IMG/VR virus record: IMGVR_UViG_3300007760_000001 | Span: 62,001-126,000 of that record | Source: a virus | Direction: 5' to 3' (one strand) | DNA: 64,000 nucleotides | In this document: one piece after another, positions 467-61,500 of the stretch | Position numbering within the stretch: the stretch's first letter is position 1 | How the letters are laid out: each line of letters begins with the position of its first letter | The notes under the pieces: model-generated | Database searches by the model: none | Seen by the model: the letters and a program-made list of their open reading frames with translations, nothing else | What the model was told of the DNA's origin: nothing | Program-made: the position numbers and the translations under genes

Positions 467-1123
467 ATGCGGGGACGACTTATCACAGTCTGTGGTTTGA
501 TTGGGTCTGGCAAATCCACTTTCACAAGGGATTTGGCGGATATACTCAAAGCTGTCCCATTAAGCGAACCTGCTGGTGATGAGCGCAACCCCTACCTTCC
601 GCTGTTCTATGCGGATCGAAGGCGTTGGGCCTTCACCATGCAGACGCACCTTCTCCAGCAACGGAGTGAAGTCCACTGTCGGGCGTTCGAGGAAATCGAA
701 CGAGGGCGAGATGTGGTGATGGACTCCTCAGTGTGGCAAGACATGGCCTACGCTGACATGCTGCACCGCATGGGGCATCTGAATAAGTATGAGTACGACA
801 CCTACCGAGCTTTGGCACGGATGGTAGGTCGAGAAGCTATGCCGCCCGATGTTTGTGTTTTTCTCGAAGTGTCTGTCGAAGAGTGTTTCCAGCGAATCCA
901 AACCCGAATGGGTGAGCAGGTTGAACGAACCTGTGAGGGCGGTATCGACCTCAATTACCTTAGGCACCTAAAAGATGCCATTGGCCACAACATCAGCAAA
1001 TTAGAGAACCGAGTTATGTTCCCTTGGGGTGACTATCTACCCTGCAAAGAGGAGCGAATGAGCCGTATCTCAAATCTTATGGTTCTCATTGAGGATGTCT
1101 GTCCTACCGTTTGCTTGCATTGA
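467..1123 (+). CDS. deoxynucleoside kinase (dNK/dGK-type)
   Basis: Likely phosphorylates deoxynucleosides to dNMPs with ATP, salvaging precursors for phage DNA synthesis in the cytoplasm. The 218-aa product has a P-loop at residues 10-18 (GLIGSGKST). The following ERNPYLPLFYADRRRWAFTMQ stretch matches the substrate-binding helix of bacterial deoxyguanosine/deoxyadenosine kinases, and R-rich LID-like residues follow FLEVSVEECFQRIQTR near 135-150. Length fits the family (200-230 aa). The family's DRS motif after the third strand reads DSS here (residues 86-88, VVMDSSVWQD), so the usual Arg is replaced; whether this changes activity is unknown. It forms a short operon with the preceding small gene and ends before a 310-base non-coding stretch. 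Base specificity cannot be read from sequence alone. Confidence 0.85.
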   Translation: MRGRLITVCGLIGSGKSTFTRDLADILKAVPLSEPAGDERNPYLPLFYADRRRWAFTMQTHLLQQRSEVHCRAFEEIERGRDVVMDSSVWQDMAYADMLHRMGHLNKYEYDTYRALARMVGREAMPPDVCVFLEVSVEECFQRIQTRMGEQVERTCEGGIDLNYLRHLKDAIGHNISKLENRVMFPWGDYLPCKEERMSRISNLMVLIEDVCPTVCLH

Positions 1124-13740: not shown

Positions 13741-15320
13741 AATACTTGATCCGATCATCAATCGTAGTCGATCCGGCGCAAGACAGACCAGCGGAAGCCT
13801 TTAAGAACTGTCTTAAACTTGAAGAGTCTGGGGTTGCTTGCGATATCCCCGAAGAACAAAAGATTTGGGATTTTGTTCGAGACTTCTCTCGTAACCACGG
13901 CCATGCCCCCAAAGTCCAAACTGTCCGAGAACACTTCTTAGGGCAGCGGGACGAGGATACGATCAACCGTTTAGAGCATTTGGTAACGGTCACTCCAATC
14001 TATCGGGGAGACTTTGAGCGGCATACCGTACAAATCGCAGAACAACGATCTGTTCTTGGGCTGACTAACCTGTGTAAGCAGGTCGCCCGCATCGCTAACG
14101 ATGGTATGGAGATCAAGGACGGGAAAAAGCAATTCCGACTCCAAGGCTCCAAAGATGCCATCCGATTTCTTGTGGACAAGTCGCATGACTATGTGACTCC
14201 CGTCTTTGGCTCCCGTCTTTCAGGGGAAGTGACACGAGACGGGGAAGCTGTTCTCGCTGAATACTCACGAGTAGAAAGCGATCCTTATGCGGGGATTGGT
14301 GCCATGACAGGCATCCAGCAAATGGATCAAGCTGTTCAAGGTGCTCAAAAAGGAGAGTTGTGGACACATGCCGCATACACGGGGGGTCTAAAATCCACCC
14401 TTATGCTCAACTGGGCTTACAACCAAGCAGTGATCTACGGGGGTAGCTCCTTGATCTTCTCCTTGGAGATGCCCTACGCCCAATGCCGTCGCATCCTGTA
14501 CGCCATGCACAGCCTAAACCCTGCTTTACGAGACAAGCGTATCGAATTGGGGATTGAAGCCAGCGATGGTCCTAACAGAGGTTTGAATTACGCCGACATC
14601 AAGCACGGCAAGCTGTCCCCAAACGGCAAGAAGTATTACTTCGATCATGTCACCCCACACTTCGCTGATGGCCCAACGGTCGCCCTACCAACCGGAGAAC
14701 CTATTGGTCACGGAAAGATCAATATCGAAGTGGCCGATCCCGACAAATCGGATTTTACGGTAGCTGACCTACGCTCGAAAGCTGAACTGATCTACGCAGA
14801 GAACCCCTTTAGCGTGATCTTTGTAGACCACGCTGGCCTTATGGCCCCTCGGTATCGGAACAGTTCGCAAACTGAACGGACCAATGAGGTCATGCGGGAT
14901 CTCAAACGACTTGCGATGAGTTTCAACCGTGGACAAGGGATCGCTGTTGTCGCCTTGTTTCAGATCAACCGCCAAGGTTTCAAGGAAGCCTGTAAGCGCA
15001 AAGAGAAGGGGTTGCCTCCTCTCTACACTCTTGCGGATCTTGCTTATGCTAACGAAGCTGAAAAGTCCTCGGATGTTGTCACCGCTTCATTCATTGACGC
15101 AGAGCTTCGGAATCAAGGGCAAGTGCTCTTCCAATGTCTCAAAACAAGAGACATGGAACCTTTCGACCCATTTTATTCGAGGGTAGAGTGGCCTTGTCGG
15201 AGAATCTTACATTGTGACGATATCCCCGACTTTGGTGTGGATGGTCGAGAAAGGATTGCCCAACAAGCAGAAGCCCTTTCCGATCAACAAGCCCTCATCG
15301 ATCAAATGTTAGACCTTTAA
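13737..15320 (+). CDS. DnaB-like replicative helicase
   Basis: A 527-aa RecA-fold helicase of the DnaB/gp4 type, which would unwind the phage replication fork. An N-terminal helical domain (to about residue 180) precedes the ATPase core: a Walker A-like AAYTGGLKST (about 213), the DnaB hallmark SLEM (FSLEMPYAQCRRILYAMHS, about 243), Walker B VIFVDHAGL (about 360-368) and the glutamine motif ALFQINR (about 405-411). The Walker A has Leu where the usual Gly precedes Lys, a variant noted under findings. The start overlaps the loader-like gene (ATGA). Family and context (primase finger and polymerase follow) make the role clear. Confidence 0.85.
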   Translation: MKYLIRSSIVVDPAQDRPAEAFKNCLKLEESGVACDIPEEQKIWDFVRDFSRNHGHAPKVQTVREHFLGQRDEDTINRLEHLVTVTPIYRGDFERHTVQIAEQRSVLGLTNLCKQVARIANDGMEIKDGKKQFRLQGSKDAIRFLVDKSHDYVTPVFGSRLSGEVTRDGEAVLAEYSRVESDPYAGIGAMTGIQQMDQAVQGAQKGELWTHAAYTGGLKSTLMLNWAYNQAVIYGGSSLIFSLEMPYAQCRRILYAMHSLNPALRDKRIELGIEASDGPNRGLNYADIKHGKLSPNGKKYYFDHVTPHFADGPTVALPTGEPIGHGKINIEVADPDKSDFTVADLRSKAELIYAENPFSVIFVDHAGLMAPRYRNSSQTERTNEVMRDLKRLAMSFNRGQGIAVVALFQINRQGFKEACKRKEKGLPPLYTLADLAYANEAEKSSDVVTASFIDAELRNQGQVLFQCLKTRDMEPFDPFYSRVEWPCRRILHCDDIPDFGVDGRERIAQQAEALSDQQALIDQMLDL

Positions 15321-16524: not shown

Positions 16525-17112
16525 ATGAAGGTTGTCCATCTGGCCCGAAAACCCTTCAAAGGGACCGTAGCCCTCAATGTCCTTACCCATGGGGCGGGAG
16601 GGTTGAATATCAACGCTTCTCGTATCCGAGACGGGTCTGAAACTAATGAGGCCCCCCCTGAGTACATCCCCAACTATGAAAACGAAGTGTTCGGTAGTGG
16701 GATGGGTGGTGGAGCTTGGGCAAATACAAGCGGGCGGTGGCCAGCCAACCTGATCTTTCAGCATCTTGAAGGCTGTGTTTGCAAAGGAACTAAAAAGGTA
16801 AAAGGGATCGCTGGTGGCTCTCATTCAGGGGTTGAGCACACTCATGCGGTTGGGGCAAAGCTCAAACGGCACGGGATTACTCGCCATAACGATTCTGACG
16901 GAAACGAAACCGTAGCCAATTGGGTCTGTGTAGAGGGTTGTCCAATACCTGTCTTAGACAACCAAAGTGGGATCGTGCCTACGGGATCGTGGAACCGACA
17001 AAAAGACGGGGCGCACCCTTTCGGAAATGCCGCTGGAAGCGAATACAATAACTGGAAGGTTGTAGATGAGCCTGAAGGTGGGGCCTCTCGCTTCTTTAAG
17101 GCGGTGAAATGA
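16525..17112 (+). CDS. methyltransferase TRD-like protein, array copy 1
   Basis: A 195-aa copy of the array family. Conserved blocks are present in order: MKVVHLARKPFKGTVALNVL at the start, GAGGLNINASRI, GRWPANLIFQH (about residues 72-82), GCVCKGTKKV, NWVCVEGCPIPVLDNQSG and GGASRFFKAVK at the end. In full-length beta-type N4/N6-adenine or cytosine DNA methyltransferases these blocks lie in the central insert between the DPPY-bearing N-terminal half and the FxGxG-bearing C-terminal half. No DPPY and no FxGxG are found here. Its middle (VGAKLKRH...GNETVANWVCVE) closely matches copy 2. Overlaps copy 2 by ATGA. Confidence 0.75.
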   Translation: MKVVHLARKPFKGTVALNVLTHGAGGLNINASRIRDGSETNEAPPEYIPNYENEVFGSGMGGGAWANTSGRWPANLIFQHLEGCVCKGTKKVKGIAGGSHSGVEHTHAVGAKLKRHGITRHNDSDGNETVANWVCVEGCPIPVLDNQSGIVPTGSWNRQKDGAHPFGNAAGSEYNNWKVVDEPEGGASRFFKAVK

Positions 17113-17783
17113 AAGTTATCACTCTTGCTCGCAAGCCTTTTAGTGGAACGGTTGCTCACAATATGCTTACGCATGGGTGTGGTGGACTCAACATAAACAA
17201 GTGTCGAGTAGGGGCTTCGGAGAGCGACGATTACGGACGCAGCGTAACGAATAGTGATGGCACCATAAACGCCCATGGGGGTTTCAGTGGGAAAGCCTTC
17301 AAAATCAATGAAAGAGATGAGGAATACGCCAGCAACTACGCCCATACTTCAGGTCGATGGCCCTCTAATCTGATCTTTCAACACTGTGAAGATTGTCGGT
17401 GTGAAGGAATCAAGAAAGTAAAAGGGATTGCCGGAGGCTCAGAGCGAGTCTCATCTCCCCGATGGCGGCCATGTCCCAACTTCCGGTCCCATTCAGGGGT
17501 GGCGCAAACACATGAGGTTGGCGCAAAGCTCAAACGCCACCGTATCGCTCGCCACAATGATCCCGAAGGCAACGAAACGGTTGCTGATTGGGTCTGTGTT
17601 GAGGATTGCCCCATCAAGACTTTAGACGAACAGAGCATCGCTGGCGGTATGCACAGTGCGGGGTCTTCTCGAAAGGCTTCACGTTCTGCTGGAAAGACAG
17701 GCATGTTTCCGATGGACGGGGACGGTCACCGTTTCGGAGATACTGGGGGTGCCTCAAGGTTCTTCAAACAGGTGAAGCCGTGA
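17109..17783 (+). CDS. methyltransferase TRD-like protein, array copy 2
   Basis: The longest copy, 224 aa. It opens MKVITLARKPFSGTVAHNML, continues GCGGLNINKCRVG, then GRWPSNLIFQH, DCRCEGIKKVKG, DWVCVEDCPIKTLDEQS and ends FGDTGGASRFFKQVKP. An extra Pro/Arg-rich insert (SPRWRPCPNFRSHSG) is found between the CRCEG block and the VGAKLKRH block shared with copy 1. The G of the usual LDxQSG block is missing (EQSIAGG). Translation is coupled on both sides (ATGA with copy 1, GTGA with copy 3). No catalytic methyltransferase motif is present. Confidence 0.75.
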   Translation: MKVITLARKPFSGTVAHNMLTHGCGGLNINKCRVGASESDDYGRSVTNSDGTINAHGGFSGKAFKINERDEEYASNYAHTSGRWPSNLIFQHCEDCRCEGIKKVKGIAGGSERVSSPRWRPCPNFRSHSGVAQTHEVGAKLKRHRIARHNDPEGNETVADWVCVEDCPIKTLDEQSIAGGMHSAGSSRKASRSAGKTGMFPMDGDGHRFGDTGGASRFFKQVKP

Positions 17784-18430
17784 AAGTTATTACTCTGGCT
17801 CGAAAGCCCCTTCAGGAAAGCACCATCACTTCCAATGTCCTGACACACGGAGCGGGGGGCCTAAACATCGGTGCATGTCGGCTTTCTACTTCAGATAGCC
17901 TCAACGGTGGGGCTTACGCTGTGAACCCAACCCATCGGGCGGGTCAGGATATGTGGACCCGTGATCGTAAAGGTGACACCAACTGTTTCAAACGGGGTGG
18001 GGCGGGCCATTACGAGCAACCTACGGGCCGCTGGCCAGCTAATCTGATCTTTCAACACTTCGCTGAATGTAGATGCGAGGGGGTCAAGAAGGTAAAAAGC
18101 CACCCGCACTTAGGGCAAAAGAATCCAGAACTCACCAAGCAGTACAAAGGCGGTGTTTTCGGGGGCGGCGGGATAACCCCCGCTGGAGGTTATGCAGATG
18201 TTGATGGCAATGAAACTATAGCAAATTGGGTTTGTGCGGCTGGTTGTCCAATACCTGCTTTAGACAACCAAAGCGGTGTCTCGATTTCTTCGGGAGGTCG
18301 AATCGGCAACGCTCAAGGGATTTATACTAATCAAGGTCGAACAGGGTGGGGTACGGGCCATGAGGCTGGCGATCCCGGTTTCGGAGATGAGGGCGGGGCA
18401 TCACGTTACTTCAAGGCAGTAAAGCCATGA
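17780..18430 (+). CDS. methyltransferase TRD-like protein, array copy 3 (GTG start)
   Basis: A 216-aa copy. The frame is open from 17606, but the GTG at 17780 is chosen: it aligns the protein (VKVITLARKPLQESTITSNVL) with the other copies and gives the same 4-nt overlap, here GTGA, with the stop of copy 2. Blocks: GAGGLNIGACRL, GRWPANLIFQH, ECRCEGVKKVK, NWVCAAGCPIPALDNQSGV, GFGDEGGASRYFKAVKP. The terminal RFF is RYF. The variable middle (TKQYKGGVFGGGGITPAGGY) is Gly-rich and differs from other copies. Confidence 0.75.
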   Translation: MKVITLARKPLQESTITSNVLTHGAGGLNIGACRLSTSDSLNGGAYAVNPTHRAGQDMWTRDRKGDTNCFKRGGAGHYEQPTGRWPANLIFQHFAECRCEGVKKVKSHPHLGQKNPELTKQYKGGVFGGGGITPAGGYADVDGNETIANWVCAAGCPIPALDNQSGVSISSGGRIGNAQGIYTNQGRTGWGTGHEAGDPGFGDEGGASRYFKAVKP

Positions 18431-19071
18431 AGACGATTACTCTTGCTCGAAAACCGTTTGATGGGACCGTAGCCCACAACATGCTTACGCATGGGTGTGG
18501 GGGTTTGAATATCAATACTTGTCGGATCACCTTAGAACCCAACAGTCGGTTGACCAAAGGCGGCTCATACTCAGGAAACCGTACAGGGAGTAACGCTTCC
18601 TCTATGTTCAACGGAGGAAACGGGAAGGTGGAATACACCCCACCCCCCGGAAGATGGCCCGCTAACTTAATCCTCCAACACCTTGAAGGGTGTAGGCGGG
18701 ATGGGGTTAAGAAAGTCAAACCTTCCAATGGGTCAGGAAGAGCGGGTGCGGGGGCATCTGGATTCCAAACTTCCTACGTGGGGGGAGATTCTAAGGCAAC
18801 AGGATTTACGGGCGGTTCTGTGGAAGAGGATGGCAAAGAAACCGTAGCCAATTGGATCTGTGAAGACGGCTGTCCCGTAAAAGCCTTGGATGAGCAAAGC
18901 GGGGTTTCTAAGTCTTCGGGAGGGCGTACCGCTAATATCTCCACCACCTCTACTATTTATGGAGGGGGCAAAGGATTAGGGCAAGACTTGACCGCTGATT
19001 CAGTGCGTGGAGATCCGGGTTTCGGAGACACGGGTGGGGCTTCCCGCTTCTACAAGCAGGTGGTCCGATGA
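18427..19071 (+). CDS. methyltransferase TRD-like protein, array copy 4
   Basis: A 214-aa copy beginning MKTITLARKPFDGTVAHNML and GCGGLNINTCRITL. It has GRWPANLILQH, GCRRDGVKKVK, NWICEDGCPVKALDEQSGV and ends GDTGGASRFYKQVVR. The second Cys of the CxC block seen in copies 1-3 and 5 is Arg (GCRRDG), so if a zinc site exists it is incomplete here. The end reads RFY rather than RFF. Variable regions are Ser/Gly-rich. ATGA overlaps on both sides. Confidence 0.75.
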   Translation: MKTITLARKPFDGTVAHNMLTHGCGGLNINTCRITLEPNSRLTKGGSYSGNRTGSNASSMFNGGNGKVEYTPPPGRWPANLILQHLEGCRRDGVKKVKPSNGSGRAGAGASGFQTSYVGGDSKATGFTGGSVEEDGKETVANWICEDGCPVKALDEQSGVSKSSGGRTANISTTSTIYGGGKGLGQDLTADSVRGDPGFGDTGGASRFYKQVVR

Positions 19072-19682
19072 AAGTAATCACACTGGCTCGGAAACCATTT
19101 GAAGGCACGGTCGCCAATAATGTTCTTACACGGGGTTGTGGTGGGATCAATATCGATGGTGCTCGCATCGCCGCCCCAAATGAAACGATTACGACCCACA
19201 CGAAATCTAACGAAGCCGCCAAAGGTAAAGGCATCTTTGGAGCTTATGGTGGGTTCAAGACTCACCAGACTCCGGGTCAAAAGCTCGGACGGTTCCCCTC
19301 GAACACCATCTTTCAGCATCGCCCTGAATGTGTCTGTTTAGGCGCACAGAGGGTCGCTGGCCGAAGCTCTTGTAAAACCTCAAGTCTTGGGCAGGGGCGT
19401 AATGTCCCCGTCACCAGTGGTATCTACGGAGCCAAAAACAGCTTTATTGGTGTGGCCCATGTGGATGCCGATGGCACAGAAATCATCAATGCGTGGGAAT
19501 GTGTAGATGGTTGTCCTGTGAAAGCGTTGGACGATCAAAGTGGTGTTCTCACCAGTGGGAAGATGGCCCAAGAGGTGAAGGGCAACCAGTTCAATGTCTA
19601 CGGTAAAATGTACGACCGCTATGTCGAAACCCATGGGGATTCAGGTGGAGCCTCCCGCTTCTTTAAGCAGGTGAAACCATGA
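19068..19682 (+). CDS. methyltransferase TRD-like protein, array copy 5
   Basis: A 204-aa copy. It starts MKVITLARKPFEGTVANNVL, then GCGGINIDGARIA, GRFPSNTIFQH (Phe for Trp in the GRWP block), ECVCLGAQRVAG, AWECVDGCPVKALDDQSGV and HGDSGGASRFFKQVKP. It is the most divergent copy in the middle blocks (for example GAQRVAG instead of GTKKVKG) yet keeps framework residues, suggesting long separate descent under selection. ATGA overlaps at both ends. Confidence 0.75.
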   Translation: MKVITLARKPFEGTVANNVLTRGCGGINIDGARIAAPNETITTHTKSNEAAKGKGIFGAYGGFKTHQTPGQKLGRFPSNTIFQHRPECVCLGAQRVAGRSSCKTSSLGQGRNVPVTSGIYGAKNSFIGVAHVDADGTEIINAWECVDGCPVKALDDQSGVLTSGKMAQEVKGNQFNVYGKMYDRYVETHGDSGGASRFFKQVKP

Positions 19683-20314
19683 AGGTGCTCACGTTGGCTC
19701 GCAAACCCTTCAAGGGGACCGTAGCCCACAATATGCTTACGCATGGTTGTGGTGGGATCAACATAAAGGCATCAAGAGTGGGTTCTGAACAGGTTTCGAC
19801 CCACAGCCGTGGATCAAATCAAGCATTCCCCAAACGGCCAACTGAAACCACTGTGGAGGAGTCGGGGCGTAAAGCCCGTCAAGACATATTGGATCACGCT
19901 CCCCGAACGGGAAGATGGCCCACCAACCTCATACTAAGTCATCTCGACGGGTGTAGAATCGAAGGCACTCGCAAGGTCAAATGCAGCAATCCCACAAGGG
20001 CTGACGGGACCATCCGAACAGGTGACAATGAGATATACGGGAAAAGAGACGACGTTCCCTTGTCGAACACCAACTACGCAGACGAGAGCGGTATGGAAGA
20101 GACTCCTAACTGGGTTTGTGTTGAAGGTTGCCCTGTAAAAGCCTTGGACGAACAGAGTGGGGTTTCGCAAAGCCCGTCTACATACACCCGTTCCGTCGCC
20201 TCTGGCAATTTAATGGTGTGGGGGGAAGGAGTGGGAGATAAGGCTGGAGTGGAGTCTCTTAACTATGGTGACAGCGGAGGGGCTTCCCGTTTTTTCAAAC
20301 AGGTGAAGCCGTGA
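19679..20314 (+). CDS. methyltransferase TRD-like protein, array copy 6
   Basis: A 211-aa copy starting MKVLTLARKPFKGTVAHNML and GCGGINIKASRVG, with GRWPTNLILSH, GCRIEGTRKVK, NWVCVEGCPVKALDEQSGV and YGDSGGASRFFKQVKP. Like copy 4 it lacks the second Cys of the CxC block (GCRIEG). Its stop overlaps the GTG start of the following, unrelated gene by four bases (GTGA), so the coupling continues beyond the array. Confidence 0.75.
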   Translation: MKVLTLARKPFKGTVAHNMLTHGCGGINIKASRVGSEQVSTHSRGSNQAFPKRPTETTVEESGRKARQDILDHAPRTGRWPTNLILSHLDGCRIEGTRKVKCSNPTRADGTIRTGDNEIYGKRDDVPLSNTNYADESGMEETPNWVCVEGCPVKALDEQSGVSQSPSTYTRSVASGNLMVWGEGVGDKAGVESLNYGDSGGASRFFKQVKP

Positions 20315-20748
20315 GGGGGTTGGTTAGGTATCAACTCAAAGACCCGACATGGGGGGAGTTCACAGTTTTTAGACCGATCCCAAAAGACGGGGATCTTTGG
20401 GGCTGTCTCACCTCCCTAAAAGGCACCGAATGGGAGAAAATGATCCCCGTTGTTTCGGGGGAAAACCTATCCCATGCCCTACACGGGTATATCGCCCCCC
20501 TGCTGAAAGAAATCGGGCCAGAGCCACGGTTGTTGGCGAAGCAGGTAGGCCAGAAACAAGGCCGCTGTGCGCTCTATAAAACCTGTGTGGCCGCCGAACC
20601 CAGTTGCCTTCCCGCTGGACCCCCACCTGATTGTTATGAAGCCCCTATGGAAGATTATGGAGCTTCTTTTGCCGCCACAACCGTTGTTTTGTGCTGGAAA
20701 ACAGGGGGTTGGGTGGTTGTCGTGGGGGAGGGTGAATTTTCGATTTGA
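20311..20748 (+). CDS. conserved phage hypothetical protein, 145 aa (GTG start)
   Basis: Begins at GTG in a 4-nt overlap with array copy 6. The protein has LSHALHGYIAPLLKEIGPEP, a Cys-containing middle (GRCALYKTCVAAEPSCLPAG, then DCYEAP) that could bind metal, and a beta-hairpin C-terminus (TTVVLCWKTGGWVVVVGEGEFSI). The overall pattern resembles uncharacterised phage proteins that sit near methyltransferase or polymerase genes. Its coupling to the array suggests a shared role, but the fold and function are unknown. Confidence 0.65.
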   Translation: MRGLVRYQLKDPTWGEFTVFRPIPKDGDLWGCLTSLKGTEWEKMIPVVSGENLSHALHGYIAPLLKEIGPEPRLLAKQVGQKQGRCALYKTCVAAEPSCLPAGPPPDCYEAPMEDYGASFAATTVVLCWKTGGWVVVVGEGEFSI

Positions 20749-20809: not shown

Positions 20810-23509
20810 ATGTCCTTTTTCGAGCAGTTATATGACTCTGTAAGGCCAGAAATTGAGCAACATCCGTGGATGACACAATGCACAATGACTCTGGTAACCA
20901 CTGAAGCACAGCTAAAGGCGTGTGTGGATCAGTGTATTGCGGCGGGGTTGTACGCCTTGGATTTGGAGACCACGGGGCTGGATAGCCGAGTTTTTGACGG
21001 GGAAACCCGTGCGAAGATCGTAGGTTTTTGTCTCTCTCCTGATGAAAATACGGGGTTTTATATCCCTGTACGACACCACAAGGGGGTCAATATCCCTTGG
21101 ACGGTAGCCCACCGTGAGATGTCCCGATTGGGGGCTTCTGATGCCGTCGCCATTTTCCACAACGCTAAGTTTGACCAAGAGTTTTTGGAGTTCACTGGAC
21201 TCGGATCGATTGGTGATTGGGATGACCCAAAGCGGTGGCACGATACGTTAATCATGGCGTATATCCGAAACCAGAAGGCCCGCCAAAAGGGGCTGAAGTT
21301 TCTGAGTAAGTCAGAGCTTGATTGTGAAATGATTGAGTTGCCTGACCTATTTGGACCTGCCCATAAAGGCGACTTGGACTTTTCCTTGCTCGATTCGGCA
21401 TGGGAACCCTGTCTTTGGTATGCCGCAGCCGACGCTATTTGCACCTTTAGGCTATTCAAGCACCTTGCTAAAGAGCTTGAAAGGCCGATTGAGGGCGTTG
21501 CCCCCCTTTCGGGCATCTACACCATCGAAAAACTGGCTTTGACTGCGACACGGTGGATGGAGCGGTGCCGCATCCAAATCGACCAAAGCAAAGCAAAGGA
21601 ACTGATTCGTATCGGCCAAAAAGAGTGGTGGGAGTCTGTTTCCGATGTGTACAACTCAGCCCAAGACACTTTGGGGCGGGATGTGCGTCCTGCATGGGTC
21701 AAGTTGTTAGCTGGCGACCTTAAAAGTGGCCTGTCTTTTGACCCCGACGAAGTAAGCCCTTCTTATATGGATCGGGTAAAGGAAGCTCGAAGCCATGCGA
21801 GGCGTATGAAGATGGATGCCGATGGCGTTGTCACAAAAGAAGTGACCTCATTGACATCAGATAAGAGCGAATCGGTGAACTTCCCTTTAGTGTACGACAT
21901 TCTATCGGGGGATCAGCTTGGTAAGCTCTTTCGTGAACTGAAGGTTCCAGGGCTTCGGGCTACCGAAAAGTCAGGCCAAGTGAAGACCAGCAAAGATGAA
22001 TTGGATCGAGTTGTTGAAGAGGCTGGCGAACGGTTCCCCTATATGGCGAAGATCAAGCGGTTCCGAGAGGTATCGAAGGCTCTATCGACCTATTTGATTT
22101 CCATGGTCGAGGACGCTGCTCCAGATGGATCGCTGAAAGCTAATTTCAATGGTTTGCGTACAGACACGGGTCGCTTTTCGGCCCCTGTATCCAAACGCCC
22201 TAAAGTAGATGGTGGTTGTCGTGTGCCTTGGCAGGGGATGCCTTCGGGCTACGACCCCAACCGCCCCGAATGTTTGAAACGCTTGCGTGAATGTATTGTT
22301 GGGCGAGGCAATCGAGTTTTGATTGCCATCGACTACGCAGGGGTTGAGCTTCGTATCGCAACGAATCTTTCACTCGAACCCAAGTGGGCGAACGAGTATT
22401 TCCGTTGCGCCGATTGTGAGAAGAAGTTCGATAAAGGGGATGGAAAAGTCACCCCCTCTGCACCACCCCCGTTCTGTCCGAAATGTGGTTCAGATAAGAT
22501 TGGGGATCTCCATAGCTTGACCACCATTATGTTGTATGGCGATGCCATCAGGAAAGACAAGAAGGCATTCAAAGCCAAGCGACAGATTGGGAAGCAAACC
22601 AACTTCCTACTCTGTTACGGCGGTGGGCCTAATGCCCTTGTGCAACAGATTGGTTTGGATCGGAGTGAGGCCGAACGGGTCAAGAGCACCTTCGACAAGC
22701 AATACCCCGCCTTGCGGAATTGGTGGGACCGCCAACACCGTTTTGGTCGCAAGTATGCGTTTGTATGCACGGCGTTCGGTCGTCGCTGTCCTGTACCTGA
22801 CATCAACATGCCGAGATACGACAAGAAAACGGGTCGGCGTAACGGTTCTTTCATTTCCAAAGCTGAACGAAATGCGGTGAACGCTCCAGTACAAGGGACG
22901 TCTGCCGATATAACTAAGATGGCTATGGGCCTAATCTACCGCCACGCCAAAAAGAACGGCTGGTTGGATCGTATGGGAATGGTAATCACGATGCACGACG
23001 AACTTGTTTTCGATGTAGAGCCTTCGTTGGTGAAGGAATTCCTCGATGTCGTGCCTCGGATCATGTCCTCTAATAAGATGGTTCGTAGCCGAAAGTGGCC
23101 TATCCCCCTTACCGTAGACATTGAGATGGGTAAGGATTGGACGGTCCCTTACAATATTACCGAAATCCAAGAAACGAAAAAGGTTCCCGATGGGTTGAGG
23201 GATCTTCTTGGTGATTATGTGGATGACCTTATTGCGGACACCCCCACAGTTGAGGCACCTACCGATGCCCCACCTAAAACGAACGGGAAGTTCCAATATG
23301 AAATTAGTGGTCCACTTACAGTTCAGTTAGCGATCCGATTGGCGAAAGCCATTGAAGCTGCCCGTTCCCCTACGGGGAAGATTCTGAGTTTAGGAGGACC
23401 ACACGGGGCAGTAGTAGCTAAACGTGCCTTTCAAGGCCGTCCCCCCCGTATTAATACGGAGGTTTTTATGAGTCTCGTTGGAGATTCAAAAGGAGAATAT
23501 GATGAGTAG
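20810..23509 (+). CDS. family A DNA polymerase with 3'-5' exonuclease
   Basis: The phage replicative polymerase, 899 aa, no 5' nuclease domain. Exonuclease motifs: ALDLETTGLD (ExoI, about residue 46), FHNAKFDQEF (ExoII, about 112), YAAADAICTF (ExoIII, about 203). Polymerase motifs: A AIDYAGVELRIA (about 505), B/O-helix RQIGKQTNFLLCYGGG (about 587-602, with Phe at the nucleotide-discrimination position) and C VITMHDELVFD (about 725-735). A CxxC...CxxC zinc-ribbon insert (CADCEKKF, later CPKCGSDKIG) lies between motif A and the O-helix (about 532-560). About 110 residues follow the core, with a disordered Pro/Thr linker and a helical tail. A GGAG-type site precedes the ATG. Confidence 0.93.
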   Translation: MSFFEQLYDSVRPEIEQHPWMTQCTMTLVTTEAQLKACVDQCIAAGLYALDLETTGLDSRVFDGETRAKIVGFCLSPDENTGFYIPVRHHKGVNIPWTVAHREMSRLGASDAVAIFHNAKFDQEFLEFTGLGSIGDWDDPKRWHDTLIMAYIRNQKARQKGLKFLSKSELDCEMIELPDLFGPAHKGDLDFSLLDSAWEPCLWYAAADAICTFRLFKHLAKELERPIEGVAPLSGIYTIEKLALTATRWMERCRIQIDQSKAKELIRIGQKEWWESVSDVYNSAQDTLGRDVRPAWVKLLAGDLKSGLSFDPDEVSPSYMDRVKEARSHARRMKMDADGVVTKEVTSLTSDKSESVNFPLVYDILSGDQLGKLFRELKVPGLRATEKSGQVKTSKDELDRVVEEAGERFPYMAKIKRFREVSKALSTYLISMVEDAAPDGSLKANFNGLRTDTGRFSAPVSKRPKVDGGCRVPWQGMPSGYDPNRPECLKRLRECIVGRGNRVLIAIDYAGVELRIATNLSLEPKWANEYFRCADCEKKFDKGDGKVTPSAPPPFCPKCGSDKIGDLHSLTTIMLYGDAIRKDKKAFKAKRQIGKQTNFLLCYGGGPNALVQQIGLDRSEAERVKSTFDKQYPALRNWWDRQHRFGRKYAFVCTAFGRRCPVPDINMPRYDKKTGRRNGSFISKAERNAVNAPVQGTSADITKMAMGLIYRHAKKNGWLDRMGMVITMHDELVFDVEPSLVKEFLDVVPRIMSSNKMVRSRKWPIPLTVDIEMGKDWTVPYNITEIQETKKVPDGLRDLLGDYVDDLIADTPTVEAPTDAPPKTNGKFQYEISGPLTVQLAIRLAKAIEAARSPTGKILSLGGPHGAVVAKRAFQGRPPRINTEVFMSLVGDSKGEYDE

Positions 23510-28814: not shown

Positions 28815-29840
28815 CTAAACGAAAACGCCATTGAATTGCTGAGTGCATCGCACGAAAGTCGTGCATTTGCTCAACTGTTTGAGCGTGGGGGCACCTACAT
28901 AGGTACAGGTAGAACGGACTCCGCCGAGAATGTTTTTTATAGTGTCATCTACGGACCCTCGAAAAGGAACCTCAACGAGCCGCCCCTCTGAGGATCGGTA
29001 GTCAGCTATCCCTCCATGGTGTTTGTCCATGGCGGCATCTGAACTCATACCGTAGAACTGAACATTGGATTCACCGTTCTTCTCAACCACGGTGCCGCCC
29101 CCTTCTGTGTGGCCAGCAAACATGCCACCGAGCATGACGAAATCAGCCCCCGCAGCGAAGGCTTTGGCTACATCTCCTGGGCAGGTACACCCGCCATCGG
29201 CAATAACGTGGCCCCCAAGCCCGTGAGCGGCATCCGCACACTCGATCACGGCACTAAGCTGTGGATACCCCACCCCCGTCTGAATACGGGTTGTACAGAC
29301 CGATCCTGGGCCAATACCGACCTTTACGATGTCGGCCCCGCTCATAATCAGTTCTTGGGTCATGTCGGCTGTTACGACATTTCCAGCAATAATAGTGACA
29401 TGGGGACATTTCTCTCGAACCTGTCGCACGAAATCAACGAAATGTTCGGAATACCCGTTCGCAATATCGATACAGACAAACCGAAGGCATTGTCGGGTAA
29501 GGAGCTTTTCAGTCTTTTCCCAGTCAGCCCTTCCTGTTCCTGTACTGATGGCGATCCTGTCGGGATCAACCATCTCCGCATAAAGATCCCAATCCCGATG
29601 ACCGTAATGCTTCGCTATACAGGTGAACAGGCCCCGTTCCGCTAAGGCGTGGTGCATGTTGAATGTACCCACCCCATCCATATTGGCGGCCATGATCGGG
29701 ATACCGCTCCATGATTTCTGGCTGTGCTTAAATGTGTAGGTCCGAAATAGATCCACCTCTTTTCGAGAGCGAAGAGTGCTCCGCTTAGGGCGGATCAGGA
29801 CATCTTTGTAGTCGAGCTTGAGGTCGCTTTCGATTCGCAT
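28815..29840 (-). CDS. guaC: GMP reductase
   Basis: Reduces GMP to IMP with NADPH and releases ammonia, returning guanine nucleotides to the IMP branch point. The 341-aa product aligns by eye with bacterial GuaC from [20 protein letters not shown] onward, so the ATG at 29840 is used although the frame is open to 29867. Key blocks: [12 protein letters not shown], the catalytic loop [13 protein letters not shown] with nucleophile Cys at about residue 182, [14 protein letters not shown] and [14 protein letters not shown] phosphate-binding region, and [10 protein letters not shown]. Length equals the family norm (about 345 aa). A metabolic gene inside a phage structural region is unusual; it has its own gap after the terminator at 29880-29909. 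Confidence 0.92.
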
Positions 29841-29879
29841 AGGCCATCTCTTGGCAAGGCTAATCAAACTCTACCCACA

Positions 29880-58543: not shown

Positions 58544-61500
58544 TGAAAGACCTCCTTATATGAGAGGGTTCGGGCAAGGATGCCCCACCGAATAGGACCA
58601 TTCCAGACGGAAGAGAACCCCCATTCAACATTGATATAGGGGCTAAAGCCTCAATACCGCCCCACGGACCTAATCTCGAAAACCCTGCGCCAACCAGCAT
58701 TTCATACTCAAGGCTGGAAATAATTGGTTGAGGGAAACTTTCTTCCGAAAAAGGTGGTGGAGATCCCGTCCCCGCATCCGTTCTTAGATCCCAAAAAGTA
58801 CGAACACTTACTAAACTGGGTTTGCCTGTAGGTCGAGAGGGTGCTGACGGCCATGTTACGGCTCCTTGCACCTCTCCCCCACCTAAAGTTCCTGACAGTG
58901 CGTCACCGCCCCCACCTAAAGTGAGGAAAGCTCCGGGAGCACCACCCCCTTGCTCAAAGGGGTATGCGGGAGGTGGAGCCGCAACCTCCACGAACATACG
59001 ACCCTGAAGGTCGATTTCAGCCAAACCTTTAGCGGGGGCAATCCCGTCATCCAATGTCGAGATCAGCCCTGTTTCGTTCCCGTCCTCAACCTGAAAGAAA
59101 TCTACGGAGGAGTATGCTGACTCATGGGAAAATTCTACGAGAGTAGTTGGGTCTTGTGATGCAAAATCAGGATCTTCGGAGATCAAGTCGATGATCTCAT
59201 CTTCTCTTGGGGCCTCCCCCGCAAGCGCCCTCTGGAGCTTCCCAAGCTGCGTTAGCAGATAAGGGGGCGTTCCTTCGTTGAGCTTTGTGATCCCATCCTT
59301 GAGAGGCTGGTTCAACAAATAGGTTTTCGTAATCGGCCTTCCAGGGGAAAACGCCACCTCTGCTGTGGATTGGTTAGGAAATTCAAGGTCTTGGATAGTA
59401 ATAGTTTGAGCCGTCTGATCAAAAGTCCAACTGCTGTTAGCAAGCTGATCCCCGTTCACGGCGACATGAAAAATCCGTTTCGCTCGGATATTGGCATCCC
59501 GAAGACGCAAAGTGTCTTTTCGGACCTTTACTCGAACATTCTCAACTGTGATATCTCCCGTGTACTCACCACTACTAAGGACATTCCAACGGTTAAGGAT
59601 GGCCATTCGAGGAGGAACTCGGTCTTCATTCTCTTGGATGTACACTCGGTAACGAAAGTTGTCCCAAACAGAAGTCGCTAACGAACCAGAATTCTGCATC
59701 CCAAAGTGAATGGTGGAAATAGAGGTTCGTAAAATAGGAAGATGCTCCCACTCCACTGTGGCCCACGCTCCCGTGGGGTCATGTCGGCTTGTTCGCCCAT
59801 CTCCCACATAGCCATCTGGTGGAGGCAGGTCGGGTCGCATCAAGGAGGCCCCCCAACCAGGATCAATCACCACCATCGTAGTGATTTCTTCATCCCACCC
59901 CATCTCAACAACATGGCCGTCTGAATCACGGGGCGTTTCCCAACTGCTCAAAAGTTCAGGGTCGCCACCCTTCCAGATACCAAGTGTGCGTTTCAAGTCG
60001 GGCGGGGGAAGCTCTCGGACATGGAATGAATAAAGATCCAAGTTCCATTCGGGTGCTCCGAACCCAACTAAATACGCTCGAACATTCGTGGAGGAAGGGT
60101 CGAAGTCAGCAAGGTTAGCTTGAGCAACCTCAACCCCATCTACATAGAGAATCGCTTTTGGAACGAATGCCTGTGTGTCCACCACAACTTTGTAGTGGTG
60201 CTCTTGGCCGTCTAACCAATCGAATATGGCAAAAGCCAGATAGTTGACCCCATCCGAAGTTAGGATCAGCTTTCCGTTGGCAAACAGCAGGGCAACGCTT
60301 CGATCCCCCACATCCATACCGAGTACGATGCCCGCATCATCAAGATCATTGAAGGTGGCGTAATTGAACTTCAGCCGTGCTTCCAGCACACGAGCAGAAG
60401 TTACCCCCTCATATGGAAGTTCATTGACGAAAGAGCCTAAAACCCGTTCTGCTTTGGATAGGTTGATGCTGAGTCCTTCAAAAAGATACTCAAACTCCCC
60501 TTGTTCTTGCCATCCCTGATCTTCAAGAGATTGCCCGCCAATCAAAGATGCGGAAGCGGCGATAAACATCTCAGGTTCAGCATCGGGTTCAATACTTGAC
60601 CACAGGACGCTTTCTCCTGGCTCATACTCACCCCGATAAGGAATTGTACAAACCATCACATCATGGTTTGGGCCAGTGATTCGGATGCCTGCGTCACCCC
60701 AAGAAGTCGGGCTTTCTACTTTGAATACAGAGGATACCTCCACGCCCGCCATCTCCGGGATCAAGGCATCCAACTTCTCAAACCCTGTCTTCTGTGGTCC
60801 GCCAATCGCCTGGAGACTCAGCCGATCATCTATCAAAGGCTCGGCCAGCCCATAGGCGGAAGTTGCTCTCCAAAGCGTTTGTTCCGTAGGAAGCTCGTGG
60901 AGCGTTAACGCTTCCAAGTGTCCAATAGAAGTAATGTTGTAGTCGTCTGGTACGGTTAGATAGCGAACGAAATCCCAACGGGAGTTCCCACCCGCAACCA
61001 GATTTCCGAAGAGTATCTCTCCCCGCCCATCCTGATCTGTCAAATCTAAGGGGGTAGTGCCTGCGCTGTACAGCACATGAGCATTGATGGAAGGAATGTC
61101 TACGGTGGCACTAAAAGATACGGCTCCCGTAAAAGCGACCCCAATAGGCTCGTTGTCTGCTCGGCCTACCAAATGAAAGTTGAATCGAGTCTCTTGCCAC
61201 GGGATTTCAAAATAGACTTCAGCGAACCCGCCTCCCCATAACTTTACATCAGCGGGGAAATCTGGGGTAACGGACAACCAGTAGTTGCCAGTGGAGAGTT
61301 TTTCAATTGCCGTGACGGTGTAGTGACCTGTTTGACTTCCATCGGGGACAACAACTCGAAGCCCCACATAGAAGAGTTCGGGGAGATCGGCGGCTTGGAT
61401 CTCCATGCGCCCACCACTTAGGAAGGTCGCTGTTGCCGTACACACAGGTTGCCAAGACTCTGCTTGGTCAATCTGATCCCCAACCAGCATGGCGATATAG

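Follow-up and report, generated by a model that had tools for sequence, protein, structure and literature searches.

We found that six adjacent genes of a viral sequence encode free-standing copies of the module that, in related one-chain enzymes, lies between the two catalytic halves of a beta-class DNA methyltransferase. The six proteins probably act in trans, as mosaic specificity subunits of a split phage methyltransferase of this class (N6-adenine or N4-cytosine) that has several specificities. The analysed DNA, hereafter the window, is a stretch of 64,000 nucleotides within a 152.5-kb viral record. We use T for the recognition module, N for the DPPY half and C for the SAM-binding half of a beta-class DNA methyltransferase. 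Each T has three variable parts: V1 follows NID..R, V2 lies between the H-C and C-C pairs, and V3 lies between LDxQSG and GGASR. The six T genes are intact, lie in tandem on the plus strand at 16525-20314 of the window and encode proteins of about 195-224 amino acids. They are given below with the gene that follows them and with the variable segments they have in common with other modules.

16525..17112, plus strand: T1, 195 aa; V2 in common with T2, V3 with L001:9947
17109..17783, plus strand: T2, 224 aa; V2 in common with T1, V3 with L004:11192
17780..18430, plus strand: T3, 216 aa, GTG start; V1 in common with L007 and others, V2 with L186, V3 with L017 and L215
18427..19071, plus strand: T4, 214 aa; V2 in common with L019, V3 with L004:9923, L071, L174 and L019
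19068..19682, plus strand: T5, 204 aa; V1 in common with L030 and L002, V3 with L002 and L018
19679..20314, plus strand: T6, 211 aa; no V segment in common with another module in a comparison of 88 modules
20311..20748, plus strand: ORF20311, 145 aa; 4-nt overlap with T6

Each junction between T genes is a 4-nt overlap, ATGA or GTGA, indicative of a translationally coupled operon. Homologues of ORF20311 lie close to T, N or C genes or to PolA in relatives, and we treat this neighbour of the array as a candidate member of the system only.

The preliminary description of this DNA had reported six adjacent ORFs with shared framework blocks. Their alignment contains 44 invariant columns, a similarity far beyond chance, and the coordinates hold; the description of the genes needed correction at the start of the third, which is GTG. 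At the 44 invariant columns 373 of 660 codon pairs differ, with 23, 0 and 367 differences at codon positions 1, 2 and 3. Since the codons differ almost only at the third position, the T genes are coding and under purifying selection. As had also been noted, the catalytic motifs are missing: neither motif IV (D/N/S-PP-Y/F/W) nor the SAM-binding FxGxG with HPTxKP occurs in any of the six genes, and the space between genes is too small for a catalytic remnant. No C5 catalytic domain or any other domain was found in the six modules of the window. The same description had named a refuting possibility, that the ORFs are pieces of complete methyltransferase genes created by frameshifts or sequencing errors. 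We ruled this out, and give it next to no credence, because the ORFs are intact and overlap, their divergence at conserved columns falls on third positions, no catalytic remnants are present, and the same free modules occur in dozens of other contigs.

Pfam searches gave no accepted family, HsdS included, for any of the six T proteins. A match to the PHROG family phrog_3008, annotated 'DNA methyltransferase', covers 74-122 residues at the N-terminus of every one of them, with E values of 6.5e-8 to 4e-14. A profile built from the six proteins found relatives in 77 viral loci. T is homologous, over its full length, to the insert that separates the DPPY half from the HPTxKP-FxGxG half in one-chain enzymes. 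The whole module lies inside the one-chain enzymes of L068, L013, L052 and L035, the last without a standard FxGxG, and twelve aligned one-chain enzymes are collinear across the insert. The catalytic halves of the one-chain relatives belong to PF01555, and the predicted structure of a fused enzyme resembles the beta-class enzymes CcrM, M.BceJIV and RsrI. These collinear full-length matches bear out the earlier proposal that the modules correspond to the recognition-region insert of beta-class methyltransferases.

All six T proteins carry the pattern H-x3-C ... C-x3-C, whose four residues do not vary among them and reach at least 90% conservation across an alignment of 77 modules; this suggests a putative zinc site. 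Neither this signature nor the three-segment mosaic presented below was among the observations of the preliminary description. A model of stand-alone T had low confidence (pLDDT 64.5) and gave no usable match in a fold search; the T profile had no match among PDB sequences. Going by its hypervariable, shuffled segments, T may be a sequence-specific DNA-recognition module. A K-[QAHE] ending after RFF marks 52 of 61 free T proteins; 6 of 89 fused T have K-[QAHE] there, and fused T usually continue differently at this point, often into motif X. Since free T has a C-terminal form of its own, it looks like an established form rather than a recent truncation.

Relatives carry the module in several architectures. 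N-T-C as one chain is one of them, and tandem T modules also occur within one chain (four in L034; two or more in L058, L067, L073, L075 and L077). An insert-less N-C chain adjoins T genes at L051 7038-8033, L021 10573-13101 and L005 3517-5511. The L051 chain matches PF01555 over 1-220 of 221, has no insert and adjoins a T-bearing gene; next to it, at L051:8024-9172, a matching pseudo-enzyme chain encloses T units. Commoner than insert-less chains beside T are separate N, T and C genes, which form ordered and often overlapping clusters, such as N-N-T-C in L046, N-T-T-N-T-T-C in L008, and one C with six N and six T in L016. T is fused to the front of C in L002, L030 and L041. The separate N gene ends at the point where T starts in the fused form. 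The separate C protein starts with a degenerate copy of the N half that has no DPPY (for example L008:11860-12681 and L046:1996-2691). This copy complicates the reassembly of N with C and counts against the split-enzyme reading.

Only in L071:9977-11593 and L174:7971-10610 does T precede a cytosine-C5 methyltransferase in the same chain, which suggests that T can also work for a catalytic class unrelated to its own. The proposed census of similar arrays found free T modules in dozens of other contigs. In the phage collection, LR745208 (485 kb) is the only record that matches T over at least 80% of its length; among its three long ORFs that contain T (516-557 aa), one proved to be a one-chain N-T-C enzyme, and free T is absent. 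Separately, L254 (CALEMP010000141.1, 35.6 kb, from an uncultured-bacterium MAG) contains an array of at least six T ORFs and two N ORFs. Although binned as bacterial, L254 is probably phage DNA.

Some catalytic genes of the relatives are interrupted. In ten contigs a stop codon and a gap of 8-15 nt break the N gene immediately behind DPPY-G or DPPY-D:

L001:11692, interrupted N
L002:11347, interrupted N
L003:11666, interrupted N
L010:12285, interrupted N
L028:14048, interrupted N
L030:12350, interrupted N
L076:8270, interrupted N
L174:6669, interrupted N
L249:55, interrupted N
L252, minus strand, interrupted N

At its end the gap has a codon that repeats this G or D (GGN to GGN; GAT to GAC in L076), and the conserved LEFMGK-like sequence then resumes in or out of frame. 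The five cases with an 8-nt gap have a hairpin at the take-off codon, with z of -1.6 to -4.9. The arrangement looks like programmed translational bypassing, by analogy with T4 gene 60 (PMC5009743). We also observed intein-like insertions in catalytic parts, at L001:11719-12951, L010:12287-14056, L028:14050-15936, L076:8284-9765, L005:3517-5511, L021:10573-13101 and L174:7971-10610. The insertion site in N is YG|C...N|SGFPKS; in L021 it lies inside FGG|C...N|TRT, and in the C5 domain of L174 at PC|Q.

We compared V1, V2 and V3 among 88 non-identical modules, a first comparison having used a smaller set of 65, and counted a segment as similar when it scored above the best of 20,000 composition-preserving shuffles. 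V1 is in common in 49 module pairs, V2 in 57 and V3 in 65; 156 pairs have exactly one segment in common and 7 have two or more, all of these counts being approximate because the V borders were placed by pattern matching. Sharing of two segments was seen in 3, 2 and 4 pairs vs 0.7-1.0 expected under full independence. Only L071 and L174, both C5 fusions, have all three segments in common, as expected of vertical relatives. The mosaic is plain in single pairs: T4 and L004:9923 are 85% identical in V3 vs 19% in V1 and 12% in V2, and T3 and L215 are 88% identical in V3 while the preceding framework blocks are 29-46% identical. Thus V types recur in distant phages in near-independent combinations, and the segments behave as discrete exchangeable types. 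Short T forms that have no middle (V2) region, and repeats of only the C-terminal half of T, were seen at L016:4651-5133, L018:11163-11609, L046:1505-1996 and L060:9323-11215; these hint at smaller building blocks inside the module.

Exchange of segments between modules on an evolutionary scale is also what one would see if the array were not a set of working proteins but a reserve of specificity cassettes for recombination into a methyltransferase gene located elsewhere. However, six intact, coupled genes with start codons and under purifying selection would be needless in a silent store, and the distinct C-terminus of free T proteins likewise counts against it. We regard a cassette store as very improbable.

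The reading of T1-T6 as specificity subunits draws on the company that T keeps. Among 59 loci with a T-only ORF, an N-only ORF is present in 45 and a C-only ORF in 30; in the 170 loci where T occurs but never as a T-only ORF, the figures are 12 and 3. These counts are not independent, as some records, and some groups of near-identical contigs, contribute more than one locus. T-only loci that have neither N nor C are L024, L007/L179, L048, L037 and the window; L090 was left out of this group as it carries a one-chain enzyme. L007, L037 and L048 have N or C elsewhere in the same record, at 36 kb from the lone T in L007 and at 89 kb in L048. This leaves two T-only records with no N or C, the window's record (G000, 152.5 kb) and that of L024 (G014, 68 kb).

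In the window the T array lies in a replication locus, in the order SNF2 helicase, an ORF, DnaB-like helicase, DnaG-type zinc ribbon, the six T genes, ORF20311 and PolA. The same locus carries N, T and C genes in L006, L016, L041, L028, L029, L061 and L076, and a lone T in L007, L024 and L048. With PolA as bait, no close relative of the window's phage was confirmed. Elsewhere in the window, 467-1123 (plus strand) encodes a deoxynucleoside kinase and 28815-29867 (minus strand) an IMP dehydrogenase.

The catalytic partner is missing from the window's own record. Profile searches of its 152.5 kb found no match to N, C or PF01555, and no DNA methyltransferase was found by motif scans or among the best 25 Pfam/PHROG families (101 ORFs). 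The catalytic-cluster genes are all missing at the position they occupy in relatives, which counts against the split-enzyme reading. An SPPY motif at record positions 59432-60313 (minus strand) was rejected as a methyltransferase, since it sits in a trypsin-like protease. Two class I methyltransferase-like ORFs, at record positions 21444-22127 and 13850-14623 (both minus strand), were rejected as partners, having no DPPY; one of them is probably the source of a DOT1 hit. The preliminary description had proposed looking for an insert-less methyltransferase with DPPY and FxGxG in the rest of the genome, and had suggested that the modules might assemble with a separate catalytic subunit. Such an enzyme exists in the relatives L051, L021 and L005 but was not found in this record, and the architectures of relatives favour assembly whereas the record itself offers no partner. 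Assembly of T in this phage is thus inferred from relatives.

The window's record is linear, is not classed as closed by IMG/VR, and its right end cuts an open ORF; it is therefore probably a fragment. Homologues of the last two complete genes at the right end of the record also occur in L053, where a one-chain N-T-C gene precedes them by about 600 bp. A methyltransferase may lie beyond the contig end, and on the split-enzyme reading the N and C of this phage would be encoded in sequence missing from the record.

Alternatively, the phage may have lost N and C, so that its T proteins use or redirect a core from the host, a prophage or a co-infecting phage. N and C are indeed absent although the homologous locus is present, and the C5 fusions suggest that T modules can work in other contexts. 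However, nearly all other T-only records hold N or C, the record is an apparent fragment, and one scan of bacterial genome contigs with the module profile gave only four matching contigs. We consider such a loss unlikely. A further possibility, raised in the preliminary description, is that T acts with no methyltransferase at all, masking recognition sites or serving as a decoy or inhibitor of restriction or modification enzymes. The absent partner, the six intact genes under purifying selection and the position of the array in a replication operon are compatible with such roles, but nothing positive favours them. T is tightly associated with N and C in relatives, and the same V segments are found both in free T genes and in one-chain enzymes that look active, a pattern that speaks for a role in choosing methylation sites. 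We find masking or decoy roles more unlikely still.

The arrangement can be set against known systems. Within the beta-class methyltransferases (PF01555; CcrM, M.BceJIV, M.RsrI; phrog_67, phrog_6025, phrog_3008), T is the insert of one-chain phage members and the relatives' N and C genes are the two halves, whereas the window has only the insert, six times, as separate genes. In type I systems HsdM works with separate HsdS specificity subunits, and some have duplicated hsdS (PMC3874165, PMC7394358, PMC3983042); HsdS has two target-recognition domains (TRDs) in tandem, and type I TRDs are exchanged by recombination (PMC3983042). By analogy, T would represent several specificity genes for a shared methyltransferase with exchanged recognition parts. 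Unlike HsdS, T is one zinc-site-like module with three variable segments, has no HsdS family match and has no restriction subunit in view.

Bacillus phage C5 methyltransferases, as cited in PMC8936443, have tandem TRDs and are multispecific. The one-chain N-T-T-C relatives look like their beta-class counterpart; going by that citation the C5 enzymes are single-chain, whereas the window's modules are free proteins of beta-class origin. M.AquI and M.EcoHK31I are two-polypeptide C5 methyltransferases that must assemble (PMC3404938). The relatives' methyltransferase is likewise encoded as separate polypeptides, but M.AquI and M.EcoHK31I are cut within or near the variable region and have no detached, multiplied recognition module. 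In type III Mod, TRDs are exchanged at conserved methyltransferase motifs, even between non-orthologous genes (PMC3983042); there whole TRDs are described as moving, whereas in T three sub-segments assort nearly independently within a module. The open-access literature searched holds no description of free-standing TRD arrays or three-slot mosaics, which is weak evidence of novelty as most subscription journals lie outside it.

In the mechanism that we propose, T would dock on the catalytic core through its framework ends, LARKP at the start and GGASRFF at the end, which are its joints to the catalytic halves in one-chain enzymes. The shared core would consist of an N part with DPPY and a C part that binds SAM, and V1, V2 and V3 would most likely be the segments that contact DNA. 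One core with six T proteins would methylate the phage genome at several motifs, which would probably protect it against several host restriction enzymes. Physical assembly of T with N and C, DNA contact, zinc binding and an anti-restriction purpose are all what we infer. The broader idea, that one shared core is aimed by many free subunits of three exchangeable segments each and so forms a combinatorial specificity code, is more tentative, and we hold it with slightly less than even confidence.

If T proteins aim a shared core in trans, evolution would have given large phages an equivalent, of their own, of the specificity subunits of type I systems. Several specificities would then be expressed at once, pre-empting host restriction. 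Given the mosaic of V1, V2 and V3, it may be possible to read specificity as a code: from the methylomes of a few phages whose V types are known, sub-motifs could be ascribed to single segments and further ones predicted. T could also provide separable targeting subunits for DNA methylation.
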